Shown here: in pieces, positions 22,793 to 51,805 of the stretch
Position numbering within the stretch: position 1 is the stretch's first letter
Layout of the letters: the number at the start of each line of letters is the position of its first letter
Assembly (NCBI RefSeq): GCF_001457775.1
Contig: NZ_CYSG01000005.1
Span: forward strand, 1-64,000
Direction of reading: 5' to 3'
Origin: Phaeobacter sp. CECT 5382
GTDB taxonomy: Bacteria; Pseudomonadota; Alphaproteobacteria; Rhodobacterales; Rhodobacteraceae
DNA length: 64,000 nt
Notes under the pieces: generated by a model
Seen by the model: the letters and a program-made list of their open reading frames with translations, nothing else
Database searches by the model: none
Told to the model about the DNA's origin: nothing
Position numbers and translations under genes: made by a program

Positions 22793-23635
22793 ATGGGGTT
22801 GAAGATGAAAGACTTTGTATCAGGTGCTGCGGGGGGCATGTTGCCAGGCGCGTCGAAGGAGGGCTGGCTGTCGGACGCCGGGATAGGCTATTCCTTGACG
22901 CCAGCAGTCATTCGGTCTGGTGCCATTCGGTCCGGGGTCTTGGTTGCTGCCAACACCAACGCGATGCTGCAACGTCTGCCGCCACAGGGAGGGCAGTACA
23001 GGGCCTCTGGTGGGCGAGGCCGCAAGGGGGTTTATGCAGCCGCTGGCAAGCGGGCGCTGGATCTTTTTCTGGTATTGGCGTCGCTGCCGATTGCTCTGCC
23101 GATCATTGTTTTCGCCGCTCTGGCTCTTTGGGTGGAAAGCGGTGTGCCCTTTTATTACCAGGATCGCCTGGGTCGGTACGGCAGGCGCTTTCGCTTGTTC
23201 AAGCTGCGCACCATGGTGCGTAATGCGGATCAGTGCCTGCAGGAACATCTTGACCGTGACCCGGCCCTGCGTCGCGAATGGGATGAAACACAAAAGCTGA
23301 AGCAGGACCCGCGTATCACCCCCGTCGGCCGGATCCTGCGGATGACATCGCTGGATGAGCTGCCGCAGCTTTGGAACGTTTTCACCGGAGAGATGAGCCT
23401 GGTTGGCCCGCGTCCGATGATGCCCGAACAGCTCAAGCTCTATGGAGATGCTTCGGCCTATTTTGCGGTCAAGCCGGGACTGACCGGTCTGTGGCAGGTG
23501 TCCAGTCGCAACGAGAGCAGTTTTGCCTCGCGGGCGCAGGCCGATGCCGACTACCTGCGCGCCATGGGGTTGCCATTGGATCTGAAGCTGATCTGGCGGA
23601 CCGTAGGTGTCGTGGCCAGAGGCACTGGATATTAA
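22793..23635 (+). CDS. ExoY/WbaP-like undecaprenyl-phosphate sugar-1-phosphate transferase
   Basis: A 280-residue bacterial sugar transferase that would start the lipid-linked repeat unit on undecaprenyl phosphate at the inner membrane. It has one membrane hairpin (residues about 88-115) and the catalytic core: YYQDRLGRYGRRFRLFKLRTM, SLDELPQLWNVFTGEMSLVGPRP and PGLTGLWQVSSRN. The roughly 80-residue N-terminus before the membrane helix is low in conservation. ATG 22793 and ATG 22805 are both possible; the ribosome binding site evidence does not decide. It opens the locus and is followed in the same direction by the BY-kinase-like and Wzz genes. Confidence 0.88.
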   Translation: MGLKMKDFVSGAAGGMLPGASKEGWLSDAGIGYSLTPAVIRSGAIRSGVLVAANTNAMLQRLPPQGGQYRASGGRGRKGVYAAAGKRALDLFLVLASLPIALPIIVFAALALWVESGVPFYYQDRLGRYGRRFRLFKLRTMVRNADQCLQEHLDRDPALRREWDETQKLKQDPRITPVGRILRMTSLDELPQLWNVFTGEMSLVGPRPMMPEQLKLYGDASAYFAVKPGLTGLWQVSSRNESSFASRAQADADYLRAMGLPLDLKLIWRTVGVVARGTGY

Positions 23636-23710
23636 TCTGTTTGGGTTTGACTGCGGGCCTGCCTATGCGGCCCCCCGGGCACCATGCTAGAAGTTGTCAG
23701 GAGATAGCAC

Positions 23711-25006
23711 GTGAAGCATTTTTCTGTACCTGCCCGCTCCGGCGCCGACCAAGGGCGCTCATTCTTATGGGACGATGATGACGGCATGACGCAAGAAGGT
23801 TTCAAGAGATTTCATCGTCGCAATCGGGGGCGTCAGGGCACCGCGGTTCAGGATGATGCGGGCCAGGACAGGCTGCTACTGGCCACAAAACAGGTGAAAA
23901 ATCCGTCTCAAAAAACGGCTCGAAAACAAATCCAGAAACCGGCCGAGAAAATTACGAGCCCGGAACTTGCCGACCAAGAACTTACTGGGCAGCAGGGGCG
24001 GGCGGTCGAAGATATGCCAAAACCCAAGCCAATGTTGTTGAAGCCCTCGTTGAAGGCTTCTGCGGGCAAACCGTCCGTCGGCAAACCTTCCGTGCAACCT
24101 TCCGTGGCCCAGGCATCTGTGAAAGGGTCGCTTGGGAAAAGTACCCCGAAAGACACCCCCATAAACACTGTGAGCATGAACAAGACTGCCAAGCCGGTGG
24201 ACTCGACTACTGCCGAAACTGTTCCAGAGCATTCTGTCTCTGAGGCTCCGAAAACACATCCCAAAAGAGACCGGTCTGCTGGTCTGCCAACCCGGTTTGA
24301 TCCCTGGCTGCAACTGCCACAGGTTCCTTTTGATTTCTTGGGGCAAAAGCCCTCGCGCCTGCCTTTGGTTAGCGCCTTTCGCAGTTCACCGACTGCGCGG
24401 GCCTTTGATCTGCTTCGCACCCGCCTGCTGCACAGTCTCAGGGATCATGGCTGGAAACGGGTGGCGATCACCAGTCCGGCTGCGGGTGGGGGGACGACTT
24501 TTTGCGCGGTTAATTTGGCGCTGAGCCTTGCCCGCGTTCCCGGCAGCCGAACTGTGCTGATGGACATGAATTTCCGCCGACCAGGGGTCGCGGCAGCATT
24601 GGGTATTCCGGCTGCTGGCAGCATGGTTGATTTTCTCGCCGGTGAGCTTTCGCTGCCCGAACAGTTGTGCCGTCTGTCCGATACGCTTGCGGTGGGAACC
24701 AATCGGGTTTCGAAACAGAATGCCTCGGATATTCTGCATGCGCCCAGCACGGGCGAAGTGCTGGACGACATGATTGAGGACTGTCGCGCTGATACGGTGC
24801 TGTTTGATCTGCCACCCGTGCTTGAAAACGATGACGTTCCTGCGTTTTTGCCACAGGTGGACGGGGTTTTGCTGATCTCGGACGGGGATCACACCACGGC
24901 GGCTCAATTGGCGGCCTGCGAAAAAATGCTGGCGGGCCATGCGCCGCTTTTGGGGGTGGTGCTCAATCGGGCGCAGCAGACGGATAGAACACAGGTAACG
25001 CCCTGA
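23711..25006 (+). CDS. CpsD/CapB-like ATPase with a broken P-loop
   Basis: A 431-residue protein with a long low-complexity, Lys/Pro/Ser-rich N-terminal half (repeated KPSV units near residues 113-135) and a C-terminal domain of the bacterial tyrosine-kinase/ParA type. Walker A' (VLMDMNFRRPG) and Walker B (VLFDLPPV) are recognisable. Walker A reads SPAAGGGTTF: compared with SP-x-x-G-x-G-K-T-T the invariant lysine is deleted. There is also no C-terminal tyrosine cluster. It may regulate chain length with the separate Wzz protein without kinase activity. The GTG start at 23711 has AGGAGA upstream; ATG 23786 is the alternative. Confidence 0.75.
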   Translation: MKHFSVPARSGADQGRSFLWDDDDGMTQEGFKRFHRRNRGRQGTAVQDDAGQDRLLLATKQVKNPSQKTARKQIQKPAEKITSPELADQELTGQQGRAVEDMPKPKPMLLKPSLKASAGKPSVGKPSVQPSVAQASVKGSLGKSTPKDTPINTVSMNKTAKPVDSTTAETVPEHSVSEAPKTHPKRDRSAGLPTRFDPWLQLPQVPFDFLGQKPSRLPLVSAFRSSPTARAFDLLRTRLLHSLRDHGWKRVAITSPAAGGGTTFCAVNLALSLARVPGSRTVLMDMNFRRPGVAAALGIPAAGSMVDFLAGELSLPEQLCRLSDTLAVGTNRVSKQNASDILHAPSTGEVLDDMIEDCRADTVLFDLPPVLENDDVPAFLPQVDGVLLISDGDHTTAAQLAACEKMLAGHAPLLGVVLNRAQQTDRTQVTP

Positions 25007-25233
25007 CAATTTCTCAGCCCAGTTATAGTTGTATCCTGAAACAAACCGCTCTTCGGTTGACAGAAGATGCGCCGGGTTGAGCGGGCTTCAACAGGCAGGA
25101 GAATTCGTCGCAAGATGCGGCCATAGTTTTGCCGACTTGCCATGATTATGTGGTGGTGAAACCTTCACCAGGTGCTGATCGGCTATGCTATCCTCATGGT
25201 GAGCTATGATGTGACGACAATAGAGAGCTTCCA

Positions 25234-26517
25234 ATGGGGCCGATTTTTTCAGTACGTGATTTTTGGGAAATGCTGCGTCGCCGCTGGACAGTGATCCTTT
25301 ATGTGACGGTGCTGGGGTGCATGGTCTCCCTCTGGGTCGCTCTGCGTCAGCAGCACTTGTACCAGAGCACCGAGGTAATCCAGGTTACCCGTCCGACAAT
25401 TGCCGATGATCTGGCCAAATCCACCGTCGAAGGCTCTTCGGCGCGGCGGATGCAGTTGATCGAACAACGCCTGATGGCACGTGGCACCTTGCTCGACATC
25501 ATCGAGAAATTTGCACTCTACGCGGACCTGCCAGCCCTGACGCCGACTGAAAAGGTGGTCATGCTGCGCAATGCGGTCTCCATTACTGGTGTGGCGGCGG
25601 CGCGCGAAGGCTTTGCAGATGATGGCACCATTTCTGTCCTGACGATCACGGCTCTGATGCCCACGGCCCTGCAGGCCCAGCAGGTCGCCAGCGAATTTGG
25701 CCAACGCACCATCGAGTTAAGCGTCGCCAGCCGGATAGAACAGGCCCGCGAAACCCTCAGCTTCTTTGCCGAAAAAGAAGCGGCCGTCGCCAGCCAGATC
25801 AGCACCCTCGAAGAAGAGATCTCTGCTTTTTACACTGCCAATGACGTGGCCCAGCCCGGCACGGTGGAGTTTCGGCGCAGCGAAATCGCGACGATCAACG
25901 AAAGCCTGCTGGATATTGCTCGCGAAAAAATCCTGATCCGGCGCGCTGCCGATCAGGCCAGTGCGACTGAGCGTCCGGCAACAGCAAAACGCATGCTGGC
26001 GGATTTTGCCGAACAACTGGCGACACTGGATGCCCAGAACAGCTTGTTGAACCAGCGTAAATCCGAATTGGAAGCGGCATTGCAGACCACGCCCGAAGTC
26101 CAGCGGCAACTGGGGGTCTACAGCCGCCAGATGCAGGCGCTTCAGGGAGAGTTAGAAACCATATCGGCCCGCCGCAACGAGGCCGAGGTGGGCTTTCGTC
26201 TGGAAACCTCGCGGCAGTCGGAACGCCTGACGGTGCTGGAACCTGCGGCCCTTGCGGACTATCCATCCACAGCAGCACGCAAGAAAAAGGCTTTGATGGG
26301 GGGCGTTGCCAGCCTGCTGGTGGGCCTGGCGGGGGCCTTTGGTTTGGAACTCCGCAAGCCGGTACTGCGCTCCGCCGTGCAGATGGAACGGGAGACCGGA
26401 CTGGCCCCGGTTGCCTCGATCCCGGTGCTGGACGTCAGAAAACACCAGCCCGGCAGGATCGCTGCCTGGTTGCGGGCCAGGCGCAAGCCACGCGCGCAAA
26501 AACTGGCGCAACGTTAG
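25234..26517 (+). CDS. Wzz/GumC-type polysaccharide chain-length determinant
   Basis: A 427-residue inner-membrane protein with an N-terminal Wzz domain and transmembrane helix (VILYVTVLGCMVSLWVAL, residues about 20-37), a long periplasmic coiled-coil region (about residues 150-330) and a second membrane segment near 350-368. The cytoplasmic tail (about 55 residues) has no ATPase domain; that part is encoded separately by the preceding gene. Such proteins control polymer length and export in Wzx/Wzy systems. The ATG has GAGAG upstream. The 227-base gap to the previous gene may hold its own promoter. It is convergent with the flippase gene. Confidence 0.85.
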   Translation: MGPIFSVRDFWEMLRRRWTVILYVTVLGCMVSLWVALRQQHLYQSTEVIQVTRPTIADDLAKSTVEGSSARRMQLIEQRLMARGTLLDIIEKFALYADLPALTPTEKVVMLRNAVSITGVAAAREGFADDGTISVLTITALMPTALQAQQVASEFGQRTIELSVASRIEQARETLSFFAEKEAAVASQISTLEEEISAFYTANDVAQPGTVEFRRSEIATINESLLDIAREKILIRRAADQASATERPATAKRMLADFAEQLATLDAQNSLLNQRKSELEAALQTTPEVQRQLGVYSRQMQALQGELETISARRNEAEVGFRLETSRQSERLTVLEPAALADYPSTAARKKKALMGGVASLLVGLAGAFGLELRKPVLRSAVQMERETGLAPVASIPVLDVRKHQPGRIAAWLRARRKPRAQKLAQR

Positions 26518-26554
26518 AGCCATTCTTTTCAACGGTGATAGCCGGTGATCCTGC

Positions 26555-27922
26555 TCAGTTTGGCAGGGTCTCGATCAATGTGCCAAGGCTTTCGCGGTGC
26601 CAAAAGAGAGCTGCGCCACCGAGGGCCGTGGCGATGGCTGCAAAGACGCTATCGTGCAGCGGATCCCAGGCCTGATGCTTGCGGGCAAGCCAGATCAGCA
26701 CGGGGTAGGCCGCGAGCATGGAAAGACCCATGGCAAGGATGCCGCCGGGTAGGCCGAACCAGGCGACAGCCAGTAGAAAAAACCCGGTTTGCAACAGAGC
26801 GCGACAGGCGGTAAACGCAAAAAAGCCGCGACTGTCACCAGCCGCCAGCGCAGCCTGATCATAGGTCATGGTGATCACCGCCGGTACCAAAGTCAACGAG
26901 ATCAGTACTATCATTGGTCCGGCCTGTGCGTAGCGGTCATCATAGAGAAGATCGACCAGCCAGGGGCCAATCCAGGCCATCAGCAGTAGCAACGACAAGA
27001 TTGCAGCCGTCAGCCCGGTACGCAGTTGCCGCTGACGTCGGCGGTTCTGCGGATCGGCCGCAACAGGTTTGTCGCGGTAAACCGGGATCATCAGGCGCTG
27101 ATTCACAGCATGTCCCAGCAGCATCGGGAAACTGGCCAGGAAAAACCCGATATTGTAGACGCCCAAAACCTCGAGCGAGACGAATTTCCCCAGGATTGCG
27201 CGATCGCCTTGTGACGTCAAAAACCAAAATGCGGTCGACAGGAAAATCCATTTTCCAAAGCGGATGAGCTCTTTGGCAGCTGTTGCCTCCCATCGGAACT
27301 GGTTGCGCATGCCCGGCAAGCCATAATACGTCAGCGCCAGTTTGGCTGCGGCCTGCACGACGCCGCCCAACACCAGCGCAATCACCGACCCGCTGATCCA
27401 GGCCAGCAGCACCATGGTGCCAACCCCAATCGATTGCGCCGCTAGGTCTAGCAGCGTGACACGTCCGACCAGCAGATGCCGGTGCGCGGTCTCGATCCGG
27501 GTCGGGTTGAAGCCGGCAATGGCCAGACCAATTCCCGCAATGGGTAGATAGTACAGTAGTTCTGGCGCGCCATAGAACCAGGCCATTGGCCAGGCCAGAA
27601 CCAGTGTCATGACCCATAATCCAAAGCCACGCAGCACCTGAATGCTCCAGGCAGTGTTGAGGAAGTCCGGATCATCACCGCGGGCATTTTGCGCAATCGA
27701 AGAACCTATGCCGACATCCGAAAACAGCGACAGCCCAACCGTCACCACAGTGACCAGCGCCATTAGTCCGAAGGCTTCGGGAAACAGCAGGCGCGCCAGC
27801 ACCAGATTGGCCGCCAGACGCAGGGCCTGACTGCCGCCATAGCCGATCATTAGCCAGGAGGCGGAGCGCAACACACGGGCCATCAATCCATGGCCCGAAA
27901 AGCGGGCTGCAAGCTGTTTCAT
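26555..27922 (-). CDS. Wzx-like oligosaccharide flippase
   Basis: A 455-residue MOP-superfamily membrane protein with about 12-14 predicted helices and the WzxC-type N-terminal pattern (SWLMIGYGGSQALRLAANLVLARLLFPEAFGLMALV). It would flip the undecaprenyl-linked repeat unit to the periplasmic side for polymerisation. The start at 27922 is preferred since GGGAG lies 7 bases upstream; GTG 27949 lacks such a site. It is transcribed alone on the minus strand, divergent from the GT4 gene with a regulatory region between. Other flippase families are less likely given the glycosyltransferase context. Confidence 0.85.
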   Translation of the reverse strand: MKQLAARFSGHGLMARVLRSASWLMIGYGGSQALRLAANLVLARLLFPEAFGLMALVTVVTVGLSLFSDVGIGSSIAQNARGDDPDFLNTAWSIQVLRGFGLWVMTLVLAWPMAWFYGAPELLYYLPIAGIGLAIAGFNPTRIETAHRHLLVGRVTLLDLAAQSIGVGTMVLLAWISGSVIALVLGGVVQAAAKLALTYYGLPGMRNQFRWEATAAKELIRFGKWIFLSTAFWFLTSQGDRAILGKFVSLEVLGVYNIGFFLASFPMLLGHAVNQRLMIPVYRDKPVAADPQNRRRQRQLRTGLTAAILSLLLLMAWIGPWLVDLLYDDRYAQAGPMIVLISLTLVPAVITMTYDQAALAAGDSRGFFAFTACRALLQTGFFLLAVAWFGLPGGILAMGLSMLAAYPVLIWLARKHQAWDPLHDSVFAAIATALGGAALFWHRESLGTLIETLPN

Positions 27923-28016
27923 CCGGTCTCCCAATGTTCTGCTTGCCACAGGCTAGGCGGCGGCAGTCGGCGGGTCAATCGCCGGGCAGGCCGGGCTGGG
28001 AATTGGGCCATTCAGG

Positions 28017-28167: not shown

Positions 28168-29391
28168 GTGAAAATTGCTTATGTTCTGAACAGTTACCCT
28201 GAACCCTCGCATAGTTTTATCCGCCGTGAAATCCAGGCTCTGGAGCGTCAGGGGCTAGAGGTGCTGCGCCTGCCGATGCGGCCCGGATCCGCGCCGCTGG
28301 TCGATCCCGGTGATCAGGACGAAGCCGCACGCAGCCACTATGTTTTGCAGGTCGGCGCGCTCGGCTTGTTTTCCTGCTTTTTGCGACAACTTGTCAGAGC
28401 GCCGCGCATGACGCTGGCGGCACTGCGGCTGGCCTGGCGCCTGGGGCGGCGGTCGCAGTCGGGTGTGCTGCGCCATCTGATCTATCTGCTTGAGGCGGCC
28501 TATGTGGCCCGGCGCTGTGCGGTTGAAGGCGTCGACCATATGCATGCGCATTTTGGCACCAATGCCACCACCGTGGCCTTGCTGGCGCATGTGCTGGGTG
28601 GGCCGGGCTACAGTTTTACCACCCATGGCCCGGAAGAATTTGATGCCCCACAGGCGTTGTCCTTGGGTCTCAAGGTCAATCGCTCACGCTTTGCTGTTGC
28701 GATCAGCAGCTTTGGCAAAAGCCAGCTGAGCCGCTGGGCCGATTTCGGTGCCTGGGAGCGTTTGAAAGTGGTGCACTGCGGGATTGAGCCTGCGCGCTTT
28801 GCCGATCCCGTCCCATTGCCAGAAGGGCCGTTGCGATTGGCAGCCATCGGACGTTTCGTGGAACAAAAGGGCCAGATGGTGCTGGTCAAGGCCATGGCGC
28901 AGGTGGTGCAGAGCCACCCGGAGGTGCATCTGTCACTGATTGGCGATGGGGAAATGCGTGCAGATCTGGAAGTGGCGATTGCAGCGGCTGGATTGGAGCG
29001 CAATATCACCTTCACCGGTTGGCTGGCCGAGCAGGGCGTGCGGGCCGAACTGGCGGCGGCCCACGCGCTGGTGATGCCCTCCTTTGCCGAAGGCCTTCCC
29101 ATGGTGGTGATGGAGGCGATGGCGGCGGCGCGTCCGGTTCTGGCGACTTATATCGCCGGCACACCAGAGCTGGTTCTGCCCAGCAAAACGGGCTGGCTGG
29201 TGCCGGCGGGCGACGCAAGGGTGCTGGCTGCAGCCATTGTTGAGCTGGCCGAAACACCGCGTCCAACTCTTGAGGCGATGGGGCAGGCGGGACGCGCGCG
29301 CGTGCTGCAACGCCACGACAGCGATGTGGAGGCGGCAAAACTCGCGGAATTGTTTCGCGCAGCTCAAGGCGCGTCCCGCAAAGATCGTTGA
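28168..29391 (+). CDS. Glycosyltransferase family 4
   Basis: A 407-residue GT-B glycosyltransferase. The N-terminal acceptor domain starts with MKIAYVLNSYPEPSHSFIRREI, and the donor domain from about residue 225 holds AIGRFVEQKGQ and MPSFAEGLPMVVMEAMAAARPVLAT, the GT4 E-x7-E nucleotide-sugar site. It adds one sugar to the lipid-linked intermediate in the cytoplasm; donor and linkage cannot be told. The start is GTG at 28168, preceded by GGAGTGGGA. It is the only plus-strand gene between the flippase and the NRPS/PKS operon, and the next gene is convergent. Confidence 0.87.
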   Translation: MKIAYVLNSYPEPSHSFIRREIQALERQGLEVLRLPMRPGSAPLVDPGDQDEAARSHYVLQVGALGLFSCFLRQLVRAPRMTLAALRLAWRLGRRSQSGVLRHLIYLLEAAYVARRCAVEGVDHMHAHFGTNATTVALLAHVLGGPGYSFTTHGPEEFDAPQALSLGLKVNRSRFAVAISSFGKSQLSRWADFGAWERLKVVHCGIEPARFADPVPLPEGPLRLAAIGRFVEQKGQMVLVKAMAQVVQSHPEVHLSLIGDGEMRADLEVAIAAAGLERNITFTGWLAEQGVRAELAAAHALVMPSFAEGLPMVVMEAMAAARPVLATYIAGTPELVLPSKTGWLVPAGDARVLAAAIVELAETPRPTLEAMGQAGRARVLQRHDSDVEAAKLAELFRAAQGASRKDR

Positions 29392-29470: not shown

Positions 29471-30337
29471 TTAGCGCCCGCGCGTCCACCGCTGCGCCGA
29501 GCGAAACAGTGGCGTCTTCACCGCAGCGGTCACCAGGGCATAGGCTGCAAAGCCAAAGGGATCGCGCAGCGCCAGACGGGCCAGTTCTGACAAGGGCATC
29601 GGCTGTTTGTCGTCATTGGCCAAAAGCTGTGGAAACCGTTGGGCCAGCTCAGCGACACCTGCATTCTGCCGCCGCCGCACCCGGGTCAGATTGCGAAACC
29701 CCTCGACCAGCGGCCAGCTATAGGTCGCTGGCAGCTTGATCCTTTCAGCAGATGAAAAAGTAAGCCGCGCGAAGGTGTCATCGGCAATGATATCCGGCCA
29801 GTCCTGCCAACGCGCGCGCCCGGCCCGGTTCATGGCAAATAGCCCAAACCCTGGCACCCCGGCGCGCACAAAGGGCATGTTCACCCAAAATCGCCCATAG
29901 GCGCGGCTGAAAGCAGTTTGGGCCGGGGCAGTCCGGGGGGTGCCGCTGGCATAGCGCGGCTCTTGCCGGGTCAGTGCGCGCGTGATTTGCGGCAGCAATT
30001 TCGGAGATACGGTCACATCTGCATCCAGATAGACCAGAACATCGGCGCGCGCTTCGGCATCTCCCAAGGTCAGTGCATTCAGCTTGCCACCTTCTGGCAG
30101 GTCCAGCACCTTAACATGCCAACCGTCGGGCACCGGCTGGCTGCGGGCAATATCCGCCGTTGCATCGGTGCAGCCGTTGGCGAGCACCAGCACTTCGCCC
30201 CAGCCTGCGGCGGGCAGGGATTGCCCCGGCAGCGGATCAGAGGCCAGCAAGGCCGACAGGCAATCGGCGATATAGTCTGCCTCATTATGGGCAGGGATCA
30301 GGACCGAAATCAGTGGCTTGTCAGACGTGAGGCTCAT
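29471..30337 (-). CDS. Glycosyltransferase family 2
   Basis: A 288-residue GT-A glycosyltransferase. The N-terminus ISVLIPAHNEADYIADCL is the nucleotide-binding start, and the DXD motif reads YLDADV near residue 105. IADDTFARL near residue 188 fits the catalytic base region. The C-terminal segment (RDPFGFAAYALVTAAV) may associate with the membrane. It is the last gene of the long minus-strand operon; its ATG overlaps the stop of the preceding SGNH/glycosidase gene by 4 bp (30334-30337). Sugar specificity is unknown. Confidence 0.85.
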   Translation of the reverse strand: MSLTSDKPLISVLIPAHNEADYIADCLSALLASDPLPGQSLPAAGWGEVLVLANGCTDATADIARSQPVPDGWHVKVLDLPEGGKLNALTLGDAEARADVLVYLDADVTVSPKLLPQITRALTRQEPRYASGTPRTAPAQTAFSRAYGRFWVNMPFVRAGVPGFGLFAMNRAGRARWQDWPDIIADDTFARLTFSSAERIKLPATYSWPLVEGFRNLTRVRRRQNAGVAELAQRFPQLLANDDKQPMPLSELARLALRDPFGFAAYALVTAAVKTPLFRSAQRWTRGR

Positions 30338-33812: not shown

Positions 33813-33816
33813 CCGG

Positions 33817-34518
33817 CTATCCTCTCAGTTCTGCGGTGGTGACGATGAGGCCCGCACCGATGGCAAAGCGGCCATGGATGAACTCGCCACAAGAAAACGG
33901 TGGCTGGTCGGCGCAGAACCGGGCGGCAAAGCTGGCCTGCGCCACATCAATTGTCAGCTCCATACCGTCAAAGCCGTAGTAGCGCGCGCTGAGGATGAAC
34001 TGGCATTTGTAGGCGGCTTCCTTGGCGGAAAAGATCACTTTGGCCATCTGGCCGGGGTTGGTCTGGGCGCGCAGCCAGTCCTGTTCCTGGGCCGAGCAGA
34101 TCGCAGGCCAAAGATCATCCGCCAGGGGTTTGTCTTCTTCGACATCAATACCAAGGCCCCGCACCCGTTCAGGCCCGGCCGGGTCTGGTTTGGCAACCAC
34201 CGCCATGGCGCAGCTATGGGTGTGGCTGATGGATCCGACCAGCCCATCCGGCCAGACCGGTGCGCGGTTCTTGCCGACAGGAATGGCCGCCGGCGCGTGG
34301 CCTGCCTGTGCCATGGCCTGATGAGCGGCGGCCCGTCCGGCGGCAAATTCGCGATGCCGCTTGGCCACAGCATTGGGCGAAAGACAGGCAGCTTCTTCGG
34401 CAAAGGGGGCAGGTGGATCGGCCAGTGGGTTGGCGATGGCCAAAGCGATGTCCGCTCCAAAGAGCGGCCGCACCAGGCTGTGCCGCTCTTGGTCCTGTGT
34501 CAAAAGATCCGTCGTCAT
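33817..34518 (-). CDS. 4'-phosphopantetheinyl transferase (Sfp/EntD type)
   Basis: A 233-residue enzyme that moves phosphopantetheine from CoA to carrier-protein serines. The metal-binding motif GLGIDVEE (D125, E127) and the second motif FSAKEAAYK (K166, E167, K171) are intact, and the N-terminal part resembles EntD. Its ATG overlaps the NRPS stop by 4 bp. It should activate the carrier domains of the NRPS (S1466) and the PKS (S1851) in the same operon. The SGNH gene starts 4 bases after its stop. A dedicated transferase supports a functional assembly line. Confidence 0.93.
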
Positions 34519-40192: not shown

Positions 40193-40196
40193 GCTG

Positions 40197-46100: not shown

Positions 46101-46817
46101 GCCATCGGGGCTGAGGATCTCGTTTTCTTTGTAAAGATAGCCGCGCCCCTGCGGCATATCGATGGTGACACCGCCCGCCAGCGCCATGCCGCATTCGCCT
46201 GCTCGCAGCGCTTTGCAGGCATAGTGCACCGCCACCAGCGAGGTGGAGCAAGCGGTCTGAATATTGACCGAAGGTCCTTTCAGATCAAAGACATGGCTGA
46301 CGCGGGTGGTCAGGAAATCCTTGTCATTGCCGGTATGGCGCAGCAGGAACATGCCGACTTCATCGACCAGACCGGGATTGGAGCAGATGTTGAAATAGAA
46401 ATAGCTGCCCATGCCGCAGCCGCCATAGACACCGATGGGCTCTTGCAGGGTTTCGGGGGGGTGGGCGGCGTTTTCCATCGCTCCCCAGGCCACTTCAAGG
46501 AACTTGCGGTGCTGGGGGTCCAGAATAGCGGCCTCTTTGGGGCTGAAGCCAAAGAACTCCGCATCAAAATCGGCAAAACCATCCAGCAGGGCTGCATGGC
46601 GCACATAGTTCGGATCTGCCAGAGTTTCAGGCGTAACACCGGCGGCCAGAAGGTCTTCTTCGGACAAAGGCACAATGCTTTCGATCCCTGCGCGCAGGTT
46701 GTGCCAATAGGCATCAACCCCTTCGGCCCCGGGCACATTGACCGACATGCCGACAATGGCGATGTCCCCGGAATATGCGGGGGCGGAACTGTCTGGAGTC
46801 TGCGTCACGGTAACCAC
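40197..46817 (-). CDS. Type I polyketide synthase, single module KS-AT-KR-DH-ACP-TE
   Basis: A 2206-residue synthase. The KS triad is C190 (TACSTS), H326 (VECHGTGT) and H366 (KTNIGHLD). The AT has S639 (GHSMGE) and the specificity-region motif AAHS (736-739), neither classical malonyl (HAFH) nor methylmalonyl (YASH). KR has GGYGGIG (1191-1197), Y1351 and N1355. DH has H1438 in H-x3-G-x4-P and a candidate D1629. The carrier serine is S1851 (GGHSL). TE has S2003 (GFSGGG) and H2161. There is no loading, enoylreductase or methyltransferase domain, so a single extension, reduction, dehydration and release is expected, taking its starter from the NRPS. It is preceded by a 298-base gap and so probably starts the transcript segment. 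Confidence 0.92.
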   Translation of the reverse strand: MVTVTQTPDSSAPAYSGDIAIVGMSVNVPGAEGVDAYWHNLRAGIESIVPLSEEDLLAAGVTPETLADPNYVRHAALLDGFADFDAEFFGFSPKEAAILDPQHRKFLEVAWGAMENAAHPPETLQEPIGVYGGCGMGSYFYFNICSNPGLVDEVGMFLLRHTGNDKDFLTTRVSHVFDLKGPSVNIQTACSTSLVAVHYACKALRAGECGMALAGGVTIDMPQGRGYLYKENEILSPDGHCHAFDHRAQGTVFGSGAGAVALRRLEDAQADGDHIWAVIKGSAINNDGADKAGYLAPSVGGQTAAIRQALAAADISAETIDYVECHGTGTYLGDPIEVSALTEAYNADTDATGYCRIGSVKTNIGHLDTAAGIAGLIKTSLALTQGEIPPSLSYEAPNPAIDFDTSPFRVNAELAPWISHKGPRRAAINALGVGGTNAHAILEEAPQRAASEESDFPFHVLCLSGQSKSALAANSAALADYLEANPDVDMADVAYTLKEGRRGFAKRRVLVAESAAEAAALLREGDPRQVFSHDRLGDTPEVVFSFPGGGAQYAGMARDLYETEPVFADWMDRGLDHLQPQLDYDIRALWLPEAGDEVAADAELQKPSVQLPLIMIVEYALAQLWISWGIRPAALVGHSMGENTAACLAGVISFEDCIDLVLLRGRLFDRVPAGGMLSIALPLAEVAALISADLDIASVNAPSLTAVSGPQDALDTLAQRLTAQEVDFQRIQIDIAAHSRMLDGILSEYRDFLSELSLSAPQIPVISNRSGQLLTPQQAMDPDYWVGQLRNTVRFADCMETLAATPGRVFLEVGPGKALSALAQLSPNIKPGQVLSALRHPDQQIMDDAYFFGVIGRLWACGVEADWDQIWGEAKRRRLPLPGYQFQRSRYFIAPGTTQQQESTPLPRRHDNIADWGYRPAWRPRLADCEYDIDTDLAEASQNWLIFADDCGLATATSARLRAAGHQVSLVRAGDTYAKLADGDYILPPEQGRFGYAALLADLADSGAMPNRIAHFWLVTNEEIFRPGSSFFDRNLEMGFASLTALAQELGGLDLADPIHLSVFTTGAAQVAHEALPYPEKALIAGPVGVIPREFPQITCSAIDIELPQQPGLLAALRGAEATDLTPRLLEELLAEPQNSIVAWRGNKRLEKSWRALTLPDATTELTPKSAAETAPNNMGFKTGGIYLITGGYGGIGFSVAAHLMQHHDAKIALLSRDGLPPRNTWDQYLTTHGPSDRLAQRIRAIQDLEQIGTGAVLPLAADVCNSGDMRAALTEIESRFGAPDGVIHAAGHIDDGPILAKSESQIAAVLAPKVTGLRVLEALFPDGSLDLMVLFSSSSTVTWPAGQIDYVAANEYLNAWAAHRQGSKTRVVTVDWGVWADTGMAAEALAARQGGKGPTEPRDCAQPLLEQTQFDGFGNPVFTSRLSAQQDWLLDEHRTKSGTALIPGTGYIEWAAEALAALDLKTPFEIRDLYFLRPLVVQEAHPRDMVLRLSPPASQTPAAGAATQYDLAIHSSLSSEGYALNAEARVALLPDSSLPASSLQDSSLPGSPAPKTLDLAEIAARCPDVTSGTPATPLRSPQQAHLKFGPRWQVLEHMALGTDEGLAQLRLPAAAAQDHCLLHPGLMDLATGWAISLVPGYDGSALWVPVSYQMIRVFAPLTDQIHSHMRLNPGSDATSASFDITLSDADGTVLVEIEGFQMTRLVAGFEATAPQSEADTDAQALGLVASPATQPLSEAERRLQINMRNGIRAAEGPAALERALNCALTSNRSQVVISSLELPALIAQTDQSTTEAAADESQTFERPDLDTDYIAPSNPVEESLAALFQSLLGVAQVGVADSFFDLGGHSLIAVRLFAQIKRQFDVDFALSVLFEAPSVAKLAQLVIQAGGTGTQTSTGGGAEPAAADAPRYTHLVQLHPGPAPGNVDTSPLFLVAGMFGNVLNLRHLAQILGTDRPIYGLQAKGLIGAETPHDTIEAAARDYLAEIKQIQPEGPYLLGGFSGGGITAYEMAQQVQAAGDDVAALILLDTPLPVRPGLNQADKALIKLQELRKKGAGYLLEWAKNRILWEISKRRARPAESGTAPSFNNRKIELAFRQAVEVYDLKPWQGPVTLLRPPLDLHWQVSRGNWVSQEREYVFADNDWSRWAPTLEVVEVPGDHDSMVLLPNASTLAAAIQTRLDPGEPDPGRSAPKPDADQTYAQAAE
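42167..42211. repeat. 15-bp tandem repeat inside the PKS dehydratase linker
   Basis: Three 15-bp units occur in a row: CTGGCAATGAGCTGT, CTTGCAATGAGCTTG, CTGGCAATGAGCTGT. They encode SSL-containing pentapeptides near residues 1536-1550, in a loop of the dehydratase region. Units 1 and 3 are identical. Confidence 0.85.
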
Positions 46818-47115
46818 GAACCTCTAAACTCGGCATCCTTTGAAAATACCGCCCTGGCGTCTGCTGTCCCCCGGCCGAACGGAGGGGCATAGGCCAAGAG
46901 CGGGGCGACTAAGATCGATAAAGGCCAACCTGCAAAAAAACCTGAAGCCCTCTCTCCTGAAGCCGACTCTAGAGAGACATTCCGGAAACTTGGCCCAAGC
47001 CATTTGTGTGCCCCACACGAATCCTTCTCACCCAGGGTAAACTTGATCAATATATGGGGCCAAGCTGTGAAAGCTTGGTGTTCAAATTGGACGAGAAAGT
47101 GGAAAGAGTAAGGCA
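46818..47115. promoter_or_regulatory. Gap upstream of the PKS with CCAAG dyads
   Basis: About 300 bases between the polymerase stop and the PKS start on the same strand, with no gene. Two dyads share the half-site CCAAG: CTTGG-C-CCAAG (46989-46999) and CCAAGCT-GTGAA-AGCTTGG (47060-47078). The region is long enough for a promoter for the PKS-NRPS segment. The second dyad could equally end the polymerase transcript, but it lacks a T-tract. Confidence 0.45.
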
Positions 47116-48579
47116 TCAGATCTGCCTTTGGCGCTGGCGGGCGCTGCGGTGTGGCACCAGTATCTGGGCTCCGTCAAACAAGGGGCGGCGTGCCTCGAAC
47201 AGGCCCGGATAGCGCAGCCGTTCCGCGTAGCCGAGGATTGATCCGGCACAAAGCCACGTGACCGGCACCAGAGTGTCATTCAGCATCATATCAACCATTG
47301 TGGCCGCCAGGATCAGGGCGATCGGTGTTGCAAAGGGCGAGATTTCACTGACCTGGCGCCGCCGGATTTCAATCCCGAGCAGGACGAGGGGCAGGGTCAG
47401 CAGTCCCATTTCGGCGAGGTACCCAAGCCAGCCCAGGGTGCCAAAGACCAGAATCCAATGGCCATCCGGGATCGAGATGATCGCGCCCGTCTCCAAATCC
47501 CGCACCAGATTGCGACCCCATCCGCCCCATCCGAACCAGGGTTTTTCAGCAGCACGGCCCAGCATCAGCGCCTCGTTTTCAAAGCGATAACCCAGGGATT
47601 GCGCCCGGTCGGCACTGATGGCTTCGGCCTGGGCAAGGATGGCGTCGATGGGGATCAGGCCAAGATTGCGCAACATCGGGTAGGTGATAGCGACAGCTGC
47701 CAGCCCCAGCGCGATACGGATCTGTAAGCGGGCCGGGGCAAGCGCGACCAGAGGTACAAAGCTGAGCCCGTAGGCCAGCGAGGCCAGACTCTTACACAGA
47801 ATCAAAACAACAAACAGGTACCCTGCGGCAAAAGCAAACCGGGTTTTGTCCTTGCCGGTGGCAACGCGTGCCAAAGCAGTAGTCGCGATCACGGCAGAAA
47901 ACATGAACAGCGCCAGCCAGAGCGAATGCGGCAGAAAGACAATGGGGCGAAAACCACCCTGACGCATGGTCTGGGAAAAATCATGCTGAAAGAAGCCGTA
48001 GACTGAAATGTTGATCTGGGGGCTGAGCCGGATCTCGATCAGCGAGGGAATGGAATAGGCAAGACCCGCGATACAGAATGCCAAAAGCAGCTCTTTTTGC
48101 GCAGCAGGCGAGGAGAGATAGCGGCGCGCTAGCAAAAACGGCATCAGGATGATGATCTGATTGATCATCACGGATCCCAGATCACGCCAGCGCAGACCGG
48201 GCAGCATATCGGTGATGTAGCGGATCGGTTCGGAGCCCGCGAGGACTTCGAAGATCACCGGATCACTGTTGGTCATCACCGTCGGCACGACGCTAAAGGC
48301 AAAGCCCAGTGTCAACAGGCGTGCCAAAGGATGCTGCGGCAGCAAAGGCACTTTTTTGCGCATCAGGCCCACGCACAGAAGGAAAGCCACGACCGATGGA
48401 ATGGTAAATTTGTCCATGTCCGGCACCAGAGGCAGGTCGAACTCAGCCACAGGTGGCAGCAGCAGATAGCCCGCCAGAAAGCTCCACAGAATGGCCCGTT
48501 CCAACGGCAGGCGTCGAAACAAGATCAGGCTGATCACAGGCCAGAGCAGCAGCATCAGGTAGGCAAGTGCGTTGGGCAT
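47116..48579 (-). CDS. Wzy/O-antigen-ligase-like polysaccharide polymerase
   Basis: A 487-residue integral membrane protein with about 11-12 hydrophobic segments and a large periplasmic loop (about residues 290-360, with WFGWGGWGRNLVRD and IPDGHWILVFGTLGWLGYL), the pattern of Wzy/WaaL proteins. In this locus it would polymerise repeat units flipped by Wzx under control of Wzz. Sequence conservation in this family is very low, so polymerase and ligase cannot be separated with certainty; the adjacent Wzz and Wzx favour a polymerase. It is the first gene on the minus strand and is divergent from the GT26 gene. Confidence 0.78.
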   Translation of the reverse strand: MPNALAYLMLLLWPVISLILFRRLPLERAILWSFLAGYLLLPPVAEFDLPLVPDMDKFTIPSVVAFLLCVGLMRKKVPLLPQHPLARLLTLGFAFSVVPTVMTNSDPVIFEVLAGSEPIRYITDMLPGLRWRDLGSVMINQIIILMPFLLARRYLSSPAAQKELLLAFCIAGLAYSIPSLIEIRLSPQINISVYGFFQHDFSQTMRQGGFRPIVFLPHSLWLALFMFSAVIATTALARVATGKDKTRFAFAAGYLFVVLILCKSLASLAYGLSFVPLVALAPARLQIRIALGLAAVAITYPMLRNLGLIPIDAILAQAEAISADRAQSLGYRFENEALMLGRAAEKPWFGWGGWGRNLVRDLETGAIISIPDGHWILVFGTLGWLGYLAEMGLLTLPLVLLGIEIRRRQVSEISPFATPIALILAATMVDMMLNDTLVPVTWLCAGSILGYAERLRYPGLFEARRPLFDGAQILVPHRSARQRQRQI

Positions 48580-48860: not shown

Positions 48861-49616
48861 GTGTTTTTCGAATTTCAGAATCGACGTATCACGGTGAACA
48901 TGCCGGATCGGGCGACGCTCGAAACGGAGGTGCTTCGGCGCTTCGCCGATGACGAGGGCTTTGCTCTGGCGACGGTCAATCTGGATCATCTGGTCAAACT
49001 GGCGCAGTCGCGCGTGTTTCTGGAGGCCTATGCCGGACAGGATCTGGTTGTTGCGGATGGGCGGCCAATCGTCTGGCTGTCGCAACTGGCCAAGCGTCCG
49101 GTCGAGTTGATGCCCGGATCGGATATGGTGTTGCCGCTCTGTCGTTTGGCCGCAACCGCTGGCGTTCCGGTGGCCCTGGTCGGCAGTACCGACATTGCCC
49201 TGAGCGATGCCGCTGAAGCGTTACAGAGGCAGGTTCCGGGTTTGGATCTGGCCTGGTGTCATGCGCCCTCGGGCGTGTTTGATCCGGTCGGAGAAGAGGC
49301 CGACATGATCCTGCAGACATTGAACGAAAAAGGCATTCGCCTGTGTTTTCTTGCGCTTGGCGCGCCAAAGCAGGAACAGTTTGCCCATCGGGGGCGTGAG
49401 GCTGCCCCCAGGGTCGGTTTTGCCTCGGTAGGGGCGGGGCTGGATTTTCTGGGCGGCCACCAGACGCGTGCACCGCTATGGGTGCGTAGACTGGCGATGG
49501 AGTGGTTGTGGCGGGCCCTGAGCAGCCCGCAGCGCATGTTGCCACGCTATGCAAAGTGTTTTGCCATTCTTCCGGGGCACTGCATCAAGGCGCTGCGCCT
49601 GCGCGCCAGAGGCTAG
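48861..49616 (+). CDS. WecG/TagA/CpsF family glycosyltransferase (GT26)
   Basis: A 251-residue enzyme of family GT26, which transfers (N-acetyl)mannosaminyl-type or glucosyl residues to lipid-linked intermediates. The signature blocks ATVNLDHLVKLAQ, VVADGRPIVWLSQL, and LGAPKQEQFAHR with GASLDF-like VGAGLDFLGG are present. The start is GTG at 48861 with AGAGGGGA 5 bases upstream. It is transcribed alone, divergent from the polymerase over a 281-base intergenic region and convergent with the next glycosyltransferase pair. GGCTAGGAGGCTA occurs both before it (about 48732) and at its stop (about 49611). Confidence 0.87.
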   Translation: MFFEFQNRRITVNMPDRATLETEVLRRFADDEGFALATVNLDHLVKLAQSRVFLEAYAGQDLVVADGRPIVWLSQLAKRPVELMPGSDMVLPLCRLAATAGVPVALVGSTDIALSDAAEALQRQVPGLDLAWCHAPSGVFDPVGEEADMILQTLNEKGIRLCFLALGAPKQEQFAHRGREAAPRVGFASVGAGLDFLGGHQTRAPLWVRRLAMEWLWRALSSPQRMLPRYAKCFAILPGHCIKALRLRARG

Positions 49617-49685
49617 GAGGCTAGGACGGCTCCGCAAAAGGGTGAATCATCCATCGTTTGAAGAGCTGGCCTGGCTCTCTCCACG

Positions 49686-50705
49686 CTATTTGTATTCCAG
49701 AATGCCTCGGCTTTTGCCGCGCCAGCGGTTCCACCAGTATTCCATGACCCCCATCGCCTCAGCAAATTTGCCCAGAAGCGAAAAGCAGGCGGCCTGAAAT
49801 CCCATGCGCCGACTAAGGCGCAAAAGCTGTGCAGGATAGAGGCAGAAGCCGATCAGGGCCCATGGGCTGATAGCAGATAACAGCAGCAATGCCACGGGCA
49901 GCGCCAGCCCCCAGACCAGTGCGCGACGGGTTTCTTGCACCCAATGGTGATCCGGCGGCCCGCCATGCAACGCGGCGCCTTCGGCAAAGGCGTGACCGGC
50001 CCTGCGGCTGCGCTTCCACCACTGGGAAAACCGCAGCATCTGGGCATCATGTAGGGTCATCTCGCTGTCCAGCCGCCAGATCTTCCAGCCGCTGCGGCGC
50101 AGACGCAGGCACATCTCGGGCTCCTCGCCGGCGATCAGGTCTTCGCGGTAGCCGTGGACATCCTGAAGTGCACTTAAACGCATCAGGGCATCGCCACCGC
50201 AGGCCTTGGCCTCTCCGACGGGGGTGTTCCATTCCTGGTCACACAGCCTGTTGTAGATTGACGCGTCGGGGAAGCGCTCGCGCCGCCGCCCACAGACCAC
50301 TGCAATGTCGGGGTGGTCGATCAGAAACCTGTGCGCCGTTGCGATCCAGTCGGGATCTACGGCGCAGTCGCCATCAACCAGCTGGACAAAACCTGTGGCA
50401 GGTGCTGCGGAGTTTGCGGGGGTCGCAATCGACCCATTCTGGCTGAGGCAAGACAGTCCAGCGTTTCGCGCCCGCGCAGCGGTGAAGGGCAGTGCCATGT
50501 CCAGCTCAACCACCTCGGCCCCCAGGTCCTGAGCCGCCGCAACCGAGCCGTCGTTGGACCCGCTATCGACATAGATCAGCCGGTTCACCTGTGGTTTCAG
50601 CGAGCTGAGGCAGGCCATCAGGCGCGTGCCCTCGTTACGGCCGATGACAACCGCATCGATGATGGGAGCGTTGGGAGGCGCTTTGCTGGGGAAACGCTCA
50701 GTCAT
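49686..50705 (-). CDS. Glycosyltransferase family 2, ExoA-like
   Basis: A 339-residue GT-A enzyme with an N-terminal VVIGRNEGTRLMACLSSL, the DXD-like site LVDGDCAVD near residue 112, the ED-like motif IAGEEPEMCLRLRRSGW, and two C-terminal hydrophobic segments (about 265-310) that tie it to the inner membrane. It belongs with the polysaccharide glycosyltransferases, adding one sugar of the repeat unit. Its ATG overlaps the stop of the upstream glycosyltransferase by 4 bp. Donor and acceptor are unknown. Confidence 0.85.
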   Translation of the reverse strand: MTERFPSKAPPNAPIIDAVVIGRNEGTRLMACLSSLKPQVNRLIYVDSGSNDGSVAAAQDLGAEVVELDMALPFTAARARNAGLSCLSQNGSIATPANSAAPATGFVQLVDGDCAVDPDWIATAHRFLIDHPDIAVVCGRRRERFPDASIYNRLCDQEWNTPVGEAKACGGDALMRLSALQDVHGYREDLIAGEEPEMCLRLRRSGWKIWRLDSEMTLHDAQMLRFSQWWKRSRRAGHAFAEGAALHGGPPDHHWVQETRRALVWGLALPVALLLLSAISPWALIGFCLYPAQLLRLSRRMGFQAACFSLLGKFAEAMGVMEYWWNRWRGKSRGILEYK

Positions 50706-51805
50706 GTGGTGCCGCCTCTGGCAGCTTCGGCTAACGGATTTTGTGTAATCGATTGGGCGATATGTGCCGTAAACTCCGGATCTGACAGAAGAAATCCCTG
50801 CTGTTGCAGACCGGAAATGCCGGGAAAGGTCTGTGCCGTCTCGGACCAGAGGCTAAGATCGCTGTTCTGGCCTATCGCTGCAAGGCGCAGGCGGTCTTCG
50901 CCATGGGCAATGCTGGCGCTGGCCAGGCTTTGTTGATCGCGCCCAAAGCTGTCATTGGCGAATTTGTAATGCTTGATCAGCGCAGTCATCGGAGCCAGGT
51001 GCAGCCCGGTCGAGGCATGCGGATGAACGGCTGGGCCCACGTCAGCACCGTTAAAGATCAACGGGTGCTTGCTGAGGCAGCAGTTTTCCCCAAAAACCTT
51101 GCCGCGGACACCGCCAAACAGGATCGGCGGGGCAGATATGGCCGGGGAATTCTGGTGCAAAAAATAAGCCAGCCCTGTTTGATCGCTGTCATAGGGCAGC
51201 GATTTGACTGCGCTGAGGTCGCAGTTGGAAAACTGCTCCATGACATCGCGGTAGGGCAGGCTTGCCACATCGCGCAAGGCTGACTTGGGAAACATCTCCA
51301 GCATCTGTGCCATGACGCCGGTATAGCCCTGTGCTGTAAGATAGCGGATGAAGCCCGCCAGACCGATCTCGAACCGGCCCTCAAAATCAAAGATCTCATC
51401 CATATCAACGATTAGACACCAGCGGTCCTGCCCGTAGCGGCGCGCAGCCGTAGCGCGAAAATCATTCTCGAAACGGCCCCAGGGCAGAGTTGACTGCAGC
51501 ACGGCCACGCCGGGCTCCTGTTGCAGACGGGCCAGGGTGTCATCGCGGGATCCATTGTCAACAAAGACAAAATGGCGAATGCCCAGGGCGCGATAATGAT
51601 CAAAAAACACATCCAGATAGTAGCCGCCATCACGCACCAGCGCGATCAGCACCACCTCATCAGGGGCGGCGACACGGCCCTTTGGGCCATGCAGATGGCG
51701 GATCGAGCGCTGCAGGCGTATTTGTTGCCAGTTTTTCTGCCAGTGCCGTTTCAGGCGTTTTGAGAGGCGCGCCCAAAAAGAGGGCTGCGCTGCGCGATCC
51801 GTCAT
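50702..51805 (-). CDS. Glycosyltransferase of the GT2_4/GT92-like type
   Basis: A 367-residue protein whose core runs from about residue 45: VVLIALVRDGGYYLDVFFDHYRALGIRHFVFVDNGSRDDT is the nucleotide-sugar start, and CLIVDMDEIFDF near residue 130 supplies the acidic metal site. This matches the 'glycosyl transferase family 2' group with the DMDE motif (PF13704-like). The N-terminus is basic and rich in Arg/Trp/Lys, possibly membrane-peripheral. It is the first gene of a two-gene operon that closes the polysaccharide locus; 176 bases separate it from tamB. Confidence 0.78.
   Translation of the reverse strand: MTDRAAQPSFWARLSKRLKRHWQKNWQQIRLQRSIRHLHGPKGRVAAPDEVVLIALVRDGGYYLDVFFDHYRALGIRHFVFVDNGSRDDTLARLQQEPGVAVLQSTLPWGRFENDFRATAARRYGQDRWCLIVDMDEIFDFEGRFEIGLAGFIRYLTAQGYTGVMAQMLEMFPKSALRDVASLPYRDVMEQFSNCDLSAVKSLPYDSDQTGLAYFLHQNSPAISAPPILFGGVRGKVFGENCCLSKHPLIFNGADVGPAVHPHASTGLHLAPMTALIKHYKFANDSFGRDQQSLASASIAHGEDRLRLAAIGQNSDLSLWSETAQTFPGISGLQQQGFLLSDPEFTAHIAQSITQNPLAEAARGGTT

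Follow-up and report, generated by a model that had tools for sequence, protein, structure and literature searches.

What would a nonribosomal peptide synthetase (NRPS)-like protein and a polyketide synthase (PKS) produce inside a gene cluster for a surface polysaccharide? The question is raised by the window—a stretch of 64,000 nucleotides from the 4.1-Mb genome of Phaeobacter sp. CECT 5382—where a Wzx/Wzy-type polysaccharide locus (positions 22745–51805 of contig C5; C-labels denote contigs, G-labels sampled genomes, and L-labels stretches around the assembly line) encloses such a line. Protein families were called with Pfam and NCBIfam profiles at their curated cut-offs, and these calls confirm the composition described in a sequence-only reading of the window: an NRPS, a PKS, and a 4'-phosphopantetheinyl transferase (PPTase) lie amid polysaccharide genes, which are found on both sides of the line and on both strands, with one glycosyltransferase (GT) between NRPS and PKS and another at the end of the run. 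There is strong support for regarding the line and the polysaccharide genes as a single conserved unit with a united function. As for what this unit does, we consider it fairly probable that the product of the locus is a surface polysaccharide (exopolysaccharide or capsule) made by the Wzx/Wzy-dependent route, and that the line makes a small acyl group decorating it, which we infer to be derived from glycine.

Conservation and linkage across genomes

Among 60 genomes, comprising that of the window and 59 relatives, the NRPS is present in 19 (E ≤ 1e-100), and the flippase Wzx and the glycosyltransferase GT2c are each present in 18 (E ≤ 1e-40), which are the same 18 genomes, 12 of them from a single genus. 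At this limit, neither Wzx nor GT2c occurs in any of the 41 NRPS-negative genomes. The one genome holding the NRPS without both partners is G033, where it lies on a 6.8-kb contig of a draft genome. Within the genus of the window, the NRPS is found in all 11 other genomes, with approximately 80% identity and a largely syntenic block. The defects seen there are a contig that stops at the PKS (G004), a PKS in pieces (G001), the absence of Wzx from the G011 locus, a Wzx of which one-fifth is left in the G007 locus, and a partial GT2d in both G007 and G011. These last two genomes also carry a 48%-identical Wzx elsewhere (G007:C1:2604822, G011:C22:24388; loci L038/L039, L032/L033). In the G020 locus (L054/L055), both NRPS and PKS are fragmented, perhaps reflecting a decaying line or an assembly error.

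A survey of 295 genera of Rhodobacteraceae, with one genome per genus and limits of E ≤ 1e-200 for the NRPS, 1e-90 for Wzx, and 1e-50 for GT2b, gave 103 genera with the NRPS and 107 with this Wzx subfamily. Both are present in 96 genera, only the NRPS in seven, only the Wzx in 11, and neither in 181 (Fisher p 1e-55, shared ancestry ignored), and GT2b occurs in 105. When NRPS and Wzx share a contig (76 pairs), they lie within 25 kb in 71 cases, at 25–50 kb in two, and beyond 50 kb in three (G189, G438, and G644), and 20 further pairs are located on different contigs. Ten exception genera were checked: five of the seven with NRPS and no Wzx (leaving out G560 and G568), the three with a Wzx more than 50 kb away, and two of the 20 in which NRPS and Wzx are on separate contigs. 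In eight of these ten (G189, G438, G644, G593, G686, G465, G537, and G580), other polysaccharide genes adjoin the line. For the reverse case, six of the 11 genera with Wzx and no NRPS were checked (leaving out G494, G539, G650, G658, and G667), of which G549 and G557 are short contigs and were classed neither with nor without a line.

The surroundings of the line were compared in 80 named loci, which were the best-matching 80 among 553 confirmed relatives and lean toward close homologues. Their genes carry family-level tblastn labels, under which a second "GT2b" in Hydrogenophaga is a different GT, and "hyp" stands for SGNH2 and, for one query, the Wzy-like protein. GT2b adjoins the NRPS in all 80 loci, and the PKS and the PPTase are each found in 78. 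Another Wz, WbaP, or GT gene lies in the flanks of 78 loci, the exceptions being L070 (a 9.9-kb contig) and L129, where ManC is next to the PKS and an AT3 gene is also present (Pfam). A gene for Wzx, Wzy, Wzz, Wzc, WbaP, or Wza is present in 74 loci; those without it are L070, L081, L122, L129, L132, and L136, the last of which holds GT61, GT2, GT4, and epimerase genes. The most common gene orders are Wzy|PKS-GT2b-NRPS-PPT|SGNH2 (35 of 80) and Wzx|PKS-GT2b-NRPS-PPT|Wzz (24 of 80), with minor orders besides.

The same association extends outside the Rhodobacterales. On plasmids of Shinella and Aminobacter, PKS and NRPS are divergent, with Wzx, GT2c, and Wza-type genes within flanks of 20 kb; in Shinella, WecG adjoins the line and GT2b (40%) is retained further away. 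The arrangement in Neorhizobium is similar. Three Hydrogenophaga loci (Burkholderiales) hold the line with WecG-like genes (27–31%), two of them with a WbaP-type gene (~43%), and Wzx was not recognised in any of the three. In a tree of 115 sequences, 110 from Rhodobacterales, Hydrogenophaga, and Hyphomicrobiales form a clade with support 1.0, where the Hydrogenophaga copies nest among Rhodobacterales sequences, several backbone nodes being unsupported. Outside this clade fall G377, L062, and G546, together with G318 and L063 from Methylobacterium, which have Wzz/Wzc-like and GT4 genes within ~12 kb. Matches to the line were also found in 29 plasmid records, 16 of them covering at least 80% of the query, and eight were examined. 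The linkage of the line and the polysaccharide genes survives rearrangement and is seen in three orders belonging to two proteobacterial classes. The check proposed in the sequence-only reading, conserved co-occurrence over Rhodobacteraceae, is strongly positive, with both partners in 96 genera and linkage in 78 of the 80 named loci.

Domain organization of the assembly line

The NRPS-like protein (34515–39152, minus strand) appears from its Pfam and NCBIfam matches to be a loading module with the order FT–half C–A[MOX]–PCP. The N-terminal formyltransferase domain (FT; PF00551/PF02911) finds its nearest solved structures in ArnA (E 5e-18) and GDP-perosamine N-formyltransferase (8e-18), followed at a distance by LgrA (6e-6). 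No Pfam condensation (C) domain was found in the protein, and the ~210 residues between FT and the adenylation (A) domain are read from the sequence as the C-terminal half of one. A reading as a true modular NRPS was rejected for lack of a full C domain, which corrects the earlier label "NRPS". The A domain, which precedes the peptidyl carrier (PCP), is split by a MOX domain (TIGR04020) at residues 779–1129, scoring 467.6 bits against a cut-off of 244.45; among 60 of the 80 matching solved chains, PuwE is the one whose best stretch covers MOX.

The substrate signature of the A domain, with positions placed and numbered by motif, is D-I-L-Q-L-G-M-I-W-K. Four glycine-activating domains with MOX described in PMC12283262 all have exactly this DILQLGMIWK, and because of this identity the A domain of the window is predicted to activate glycine. 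Conservation was tallied over 109 loci with an NRPS open reading frame (ORF) match, 106 of them full length, and 107 PKS ORF matches, 97 of them full length; matched spans below 90% left out the NRPS of L078, G020, and G033 and the PKS of G007, L081, L098, L122, G001, L062, G020, L073, G033, and L070. Forty-three of the 106 full-length NRPS have exactly the code of the window, 60 differ only at position 299, two only at 330, and one at both. Eight of the ten positions are invariant, position 330 being Ile in 103 and Val in three, and position 299 Leu in 45, Met in 47, Phe in 11, and other residues in three. The catalytic Asn and Asp of FT are present in 106/106 and its His in 105/106 (Phe in G377), and the PCP Ser is present in 104, the remaining two showing one gap and one X.

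The type I PKS (40197–46817, minus strand; Pfam) has the order KS–AT–KR–DH–ACP–TE, that is, ketosynthase, acyltransferase, ketoreductase, dehydratase, acyl carrier, and thioesterase, and no enoyl reductase domain was found in it by the Pfam scan. All 97 full-length homologues keep KS Cys/His/His, AT Ser/His, KR Tyr/Asn, DH His/Asp, ACP Ser, and TE Ser/Asp, and the TE His is present in 94, with three gaps. The KR Ser column, aligned only loosely (Ser in 69, Thr in 27, Cys in one), was left out of account. Between PKS and NRPS lies GT2b (39149–40192, minus strand; PF00535), whose start, judged from the sequence, is most likely 40192 and not 40405. The PPTase (33817–34518, minus strand; PF17837 E 3e-24, PF01648) follows the NRPS. 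The seven minus-strand genes from the PKS to GT2a are spaced by +4, −4, −4, +4, −4, and −4 nt. Because of these 4-nt gaps and overlaps, the enzymes of the line, two SGNH proteins, and two GTs very probably form one transcript.

Reduced forms of the line

In two genomes, the usual slot holds a shortened line: G499 (L178 8190–18512) and G487 (L180/L181 joined, 18176–27827). The NRPS of G487 retains the FT and PCP sites, has the A-domain code DILQLGLIWK, and has MOX deleted, and its PKS retains KS, AT, ACP, and TE, with the KR Tyr/Asn lost and DH deleted. In G499, the NRPS has MOX deleted and the FT triad and PCP Ser lost, and keeps the A-domain code. Its PKS has lost KS Cys/His/His, AT Ser/His, KR Tyr/Asn, and DH His, and has retained ACP Ser, TE Ser/Asp/His, and DH Asp. 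Both genomes have Arg and Asp in place of the KR Tyr and Asn. The PKS of G499 consists of two ORFs of 1208 and 778 residues, the break leaving DH-ACP-TE as a separate frame. In the A-domain tree, G499 groups with the G013/G031 type (support 1.0) and G487 with G029 (0.77), and since the two fall apart, their lines look independently reduced.

The identity of each G499 domain to the window was set against that of 60 (NRPS) or 54 (PKS) divergent intact homologues. KS (z −8.8), AT (−6.6), the FT N-lobe (−4.5), KR (−4.3), DH (−3.5), and PCP (−2.5) fall far below this background, whereas A (−1.5 and −0.8), ACP (−1.9), and TE (−1.9) stay nearer to it. If the G499 line works, it could only activate glycine and pass it on, and since mere hydrolysis would be futile, an acceptor is implied. 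With one carrier and the TE, this would amount to plain glycyl transfer, by a logic like that of the D-alanylation of teichoic acid. Some observations count against this view. The non-catalytic pseudo-KR (z −0.1), FT C-lobe (0.7), and half C (−0.3) of G499 are equally conserved, and the TE of G487 has a z of −2.5, so A, ACP, and TE of G499 are set apart by their intact catalytic residues and not by overall identity. G499 could also hold a non-functional relic or a decaying line. A search for close relatives of G499 suited to a selection test gave matches in 4 of 61 genomes, namely G499 itself and three intact-type lines. Taken together, the reduced lines of G487 and G499 favour an acyl decoration of the polysaccharide.

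SGNH and glycosidase-like partners

Two further genes of the coupled run encode candidate editing enzymes. The first (30334–32871, minus strand) encodes an 845-residue protein, SGNH-GH, in which an SGNH domain is fused to a glycosidase-like C-terminal part. A sub-threshold GDSL match (E 0.0014) is the sole family basis of the SGNH call, which is accompanied by invariant residues in an alignment of 23 sequences. The C-terminal part has no Pfam or PDB match, and we presume it to be glycosidase-like from an NE...E pattern. The second gene encodes SGNH2 (32868–33812, minus strand), a candidate SGNH-type esterase/acyltransferase without a Pfam or NCBIfam match over the cut-off. Gly-His-Ser and Asp-x-x-His motifs, invariant in 29 sequences, link it to SGNH proteins, and its orthologues are ~30% identical to the N-terminus of SGNH-GH. 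Profiles of SGNH2 and SGNH-GH gave no match each among PDB sequences at E ≤ 1. An orthologous ORF of SGNH2 is present in 49 of the 80 named loci and beside the G618 line.

Transmembrane (TM) segments were taken from a crude scan, and signal sequences were assessed by eye. About ten loci encode the glycosidase-like part on its own, as a protein whose N-terminus is signal-like, and two Hydrogenophaga SGNH2 N-termini end in a lipobox-like LGAC or LTAC. The N-terminus of SGNH2 in the window appears hydrophobic. In a comparison of L080, L084, L089, L106, L115, and L124, the glycosidase-like part was seen fused to SGNH in some genera and separate in others.

Other loci hold additional enzymes of a related kind. 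AT3 homologues occur in 8 of the 80 named loci, and a Paracoccus locus encodes a fused AT3-SGNH acyltransferase. Extra NRPS-type genes are also found, such as a C-A-PCP-TE gene adjoining WecG in Paracoccus (L175:7002–11057), an AMP-PCP-C-A-PCP-TE gene in the polysaccharide locus of Hydrogenophaga (L122:18747–24752), and a lone A domain in that of Neorhizobium (L064:32100–33764). Acyl and aminoacyl tailoring thus seems to be a theme of these loci.

Proposed function and alternatives

Under the decoration model, the PPTase would arm the carrier domains of the line, the A domain would activate glycine, and the glycyl unit would be N-formylated by FT and oxidised by the inserted MOX. The PKS would then add one malonate-type unit (or more if it acts iteratively), to be reduced by KR and dehydrated by DH, before TE releases or transfers the chain. 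A sugar within the repeat unit would then receive the acyl group; the simplest course is a cytoplasmic transfer while the repeat is lipid-linked and has yet to be flipped by Wzx. The decorated units would be polymerised by Wzy. Outside the inner membrane, the SGNH proteins and the glycosidase-like protein may edit the acylated polymer. Of the three roles put forward in the sequence-only reading—that the product decorates, caps, or anchors the polymer—decoration is the best reading, given the linkage and the reduced lines, and an anchor is disfavoured.

Several points weigh against this model. A dedicated carrier-to-sugar transferase was not identified in the locus, and TE domains normally hydrolyse or cyclise. 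In the window, SGNH-GH has no obvious signal sequence by eye, and the crude scan found no TM segment in SGNH2. The situation that the sequence-only reading had named as refuting occurs in one genus of the same clade, G618, a genuine exception: its PKS, NRPS, and SGNH2 genes are bordered by cobalamin-synthesis genes and an amino-acid transporter, no polysaccharide gene was found next to the line, and Wzx and GT2b are absent at the limits used. Distant homologues (41–44% identity) sit in other settings, too. That of G377 (43%), in which the FT His is lost, is flanked, in a scan of 10 ORFs, by zinc-transport, TPP-enzyme, and further unrelated genes, G546 holds a different, larger NRPS/PKS cluster, and the FT-A-MOX-PCP protein of L062 (41%), from a plasmid of Aliiroseovarius M344, adjoins a 9.2-kb NRPS/PKS gene. 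Conversely, a 40-kb stretch (which reaches 6 kb on one side of Wzx in G576) shows polysaccharide genes of a related kind in G576 and G482 and lacks the line, so the polymer can do without the line in some genera. As to the L062 plasmid, GT2 and TamAB genes lie ~10–18 kb from the line and its only WbaP-type gene ~75 kb away. The neighbourhood of L062 also includes an XrtD exosortase/VPLPA-CTERM set, and its product is apparently a different one.

The alternative that survives best, although we regard it as unlikely, is that the line makes a free small molecule: a soluble metabolite, perhaps glycosylated by GT2b, that acts as a signal, in a siderophore-like manner, or in defence, and that shares the locus through surface-attached life or retention by the polymer. 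Among NCBIfam families, GT2b is most similar, though at a score far below the cut-off, to the mycofactocin glycosyltransferase, an enzyme that acts on a small molecule. Glycine-MOX modules occur in natural-product megasynthases (PMC12283262), and the isolated line of G618 and the distant homologues in ordinary NRPS/PKS settings fit a free product as well. However, the Pfam scan of genes in the window locus revealed no exporter dedicated to a small molecule, and the line is tied to a particular Wzx subfamily and to GT2c over genera and gene orders. Moreover, the SGNH and glycosidase-like genes, whose products look exported in other genera, belong to the coupled run, and a line like that of G499, which at best activates glycine, would be senseless as the source of a secreted product.

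Less probable still, and quite doubtful in our view, is that the acyl product sits at the end of the chain, as a lipid-like anchor, a primer, or a cap, instead of decorating the repeat unit. Such a role has been considered for the PKS genes of rkp/wcb capsule loci. Type I PKS genes, rkpA and wcbR, do lie within capsule clusters (PMC3908369), and a terminus of this kind could be acted on by WbaP, Wzx, Wzz, and GT2b. Yet a long saturated lipid would be an unexpected product of a line that lacks an enoyl reductase domain and has a predicted glycine starter; the locus has a normal priming enzyme of WbaP type; and a line reduced to glycine activation would be unable to make a lipid anchor. On the grounds of the missing enoyl reductase, the glycine starter, and the reduced lines, a lipid anchor was rejected as the leading explanation. 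Finally, it is very improbable that the two gene sets are merely carried along on one genomic island or replicon and have no product in common. In favour of this view, the loci can be plasmid-borne, and the betaproteobacterial copies nest in Rhodobacterales as after horizontal transfer (with weak backbone support). Against it, their linkage outlasts changes of gene order and extends over three orders from two proteobacterial classes, Wzx and the line co-occur even when more than 50 kb apart with other polysaccharide genes adjoining the line (G189, G438, and G644), and closely spaced genes mix both sets; plain chance neighbourhood was rejected on the co-occurrence counts.

Returning to the decoration of the polysaccharide, a more detailed version of this model is put forward tentatively, as slightly less than an even call. 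It holds that, in roughly one in three of the family's sampled genera, as well as in other orders, the repeat unit carries an NRPS-PKS acyl group with a (formyl)glycine start oxidised by MOX, and that in some lineages the line is pared down to a set of glycine A domain, carrier, and TE that aminoacylates the polymer, a Dlt-like function that would have evolved from a polyketide assembly line. If decoration is true, a widespread orphan roseobacter cluster would gain a testable role in tailoring a surface polymer instead of producing a free metabolite, and its product should be sought in the exopolysaccharide and not in culture extracts. NRPS/PKS chemistry would then also include the decoration of polymers, and the shortened lines would provide a natural series in which the reduction of an assembly line can be studied.

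Comparison with known systems

The line itself has been described before. In 2015, an orphan Roseobacter cluster of NRPS, PKS, glycosyltransferase, and PPTase genes—the same four as in the window—was reported in 28 of 57 Roseobacter genomes, with an unknown product (Collins et al., PMC4337385), and Leisingera sp. ANG-Vp (L067), a strain from that work, has the locus, as do Tritonibacter mobilis and Leisingera aquimarina (L091/L071). As far as the accessible parts of PMC4337385, PMC4062626, and PMC10608839 go, it is treated as a secondary-metabolite cluster without mention of Wzx/Wzy surroundings, and the words "polysaccharide" and "exopolysaccharide" appear 0 times in the main text of PMC4337385. 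The PKS and NRPS of P. inhibens have nearby locus numbers, Inhi_1972 and _1974 (PMC4062626), and a figure legend of PMC10608839 indicates that the PKS/NRPS region was compared over four genera. The portions available of PMC8383342 and PMC6224355 hold no statement on the polysaccharide setting, and no published link of this line to a polysaccharide was found in the open-licence literature. Hence, the sequence-only reading, which knew of no described system of this composition, was right as to the polysaccharide setting, which was not found in the open-licence papers searched, and had missed the four-gene cluster, which is known (PMC4337385).

A type I PKS within a polysaccharide cluster is likewise found for RkpA and WcbR in rhizobial and Burkholderia capsule clusters (PMC3908369). 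No NRPS, FT, or MOX partner is mentioned for them in the accessible part of that source (PMC3908369), whereas the window has all of these. The window further differs in its Wzx/Wzy machinery, the KS-AT-KR-DH-ACP-TE order, and the predicted glycine starter.

Terminal amide-forming A-MOX modules are those of the myxothiazol/melithiazol type. With the glycine A-MOX modules, the window shares the identical ten-residue signature and the inserted TIGR04020 domain (PMC12283262). It differs from them in its place as the loading module, in the FT at its N-terminus, and in having no more than half of a C domain. The fusion of FT before A and PCP also resembles the F-A-PCP initiation module of LgrA type, although the FT of the window is closer to ArnA and GDP-perosamine N-formyltransferase.

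In the Dlt system, DltA (adenylation) and the carrier DltC feed an aminoacyl group to teichoic acid, with DltD as an SGNH-type partner. The likeness of the window to this system lies in the domains only: an A domain, a carrier (from the NRPS or the PKS), and SGNH-type proteins. An MBOAT protein (DltB) was not found among the scanned genes of the window locus, and the window has, unlike Dlt, a glycine code, a PKS-derived carrier, and a TE.

Other genes of the locus

The polysaccharide genes surrounding the line begin on the plus strand with a WbaP-type priming sugar transferase (Bac_transf; 22745–23635; PF02397 E 7e-57, over the cut-off), followed by a Wzc-like BY-kinase/CpsD (23711–25006; TIGR03018 E 2e-19, below the curated cut-off) and a Wzz-like chain-length determinant (25234–26517; PF02706 E 2e-4 and TIGR03007 E 1e-20, both below the cut-off). 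The Wzx flippase (26555–27949, minus strand) matches PF13440 over the cut-off (E 5e-44), and is followed by a GT4 glycosyltransferase (28168–29391, plus strand; PF13692/PF00534) and GT2a (29471–30337, minus strand; PF00535), the final gene of the coupled run, which overlaps the preceding gene by 4 nt.

At the other end of the run, a gap of 298 nt separates the PKS from the gene of the Wzy-like membrane protein (47116–48579, minus strand). This protein has no Pfam or NCBIfam match over the cut-off, and its label rests on ~8 TM-like segments and its conserved position. An ORF of 103 residues (46805–47116) was discarded, having no family match, and is probably not a gene. Beyond lie a WecG/TagA/CpsF glycosyltransferase (48861–49616, plus strand; PF03808 E 1e-44), GT2c (49686–50705, minus strand; PF00535), the conserved partner that shares its 18 of 60 genomes with Wzx, and GT2d (50702–51805, minus strand; PF13704 E 2e-19). 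Wza (PF02563) is not in the window, the two PF02563 genes of the genome being on contigs C7 and C19. Promoter scans of the locus were uninformative, one giving a single promoter-like site and the other none, fewer than the mean for shuffled sequence, and Rfam and tRNA scans of the window gave no match.

Directly after the locus lie TamB/TamA (51982–57293), and TamB homologues are found in 10 of the 80 named loci, other genera included. Near this end of the region there is also a urate oxidase N-terminal family protein (57523–58752; PF06181), and near the other end a mycothiol maleylpyruvate isomerase N-domain protein (20098–21114; PF11716).

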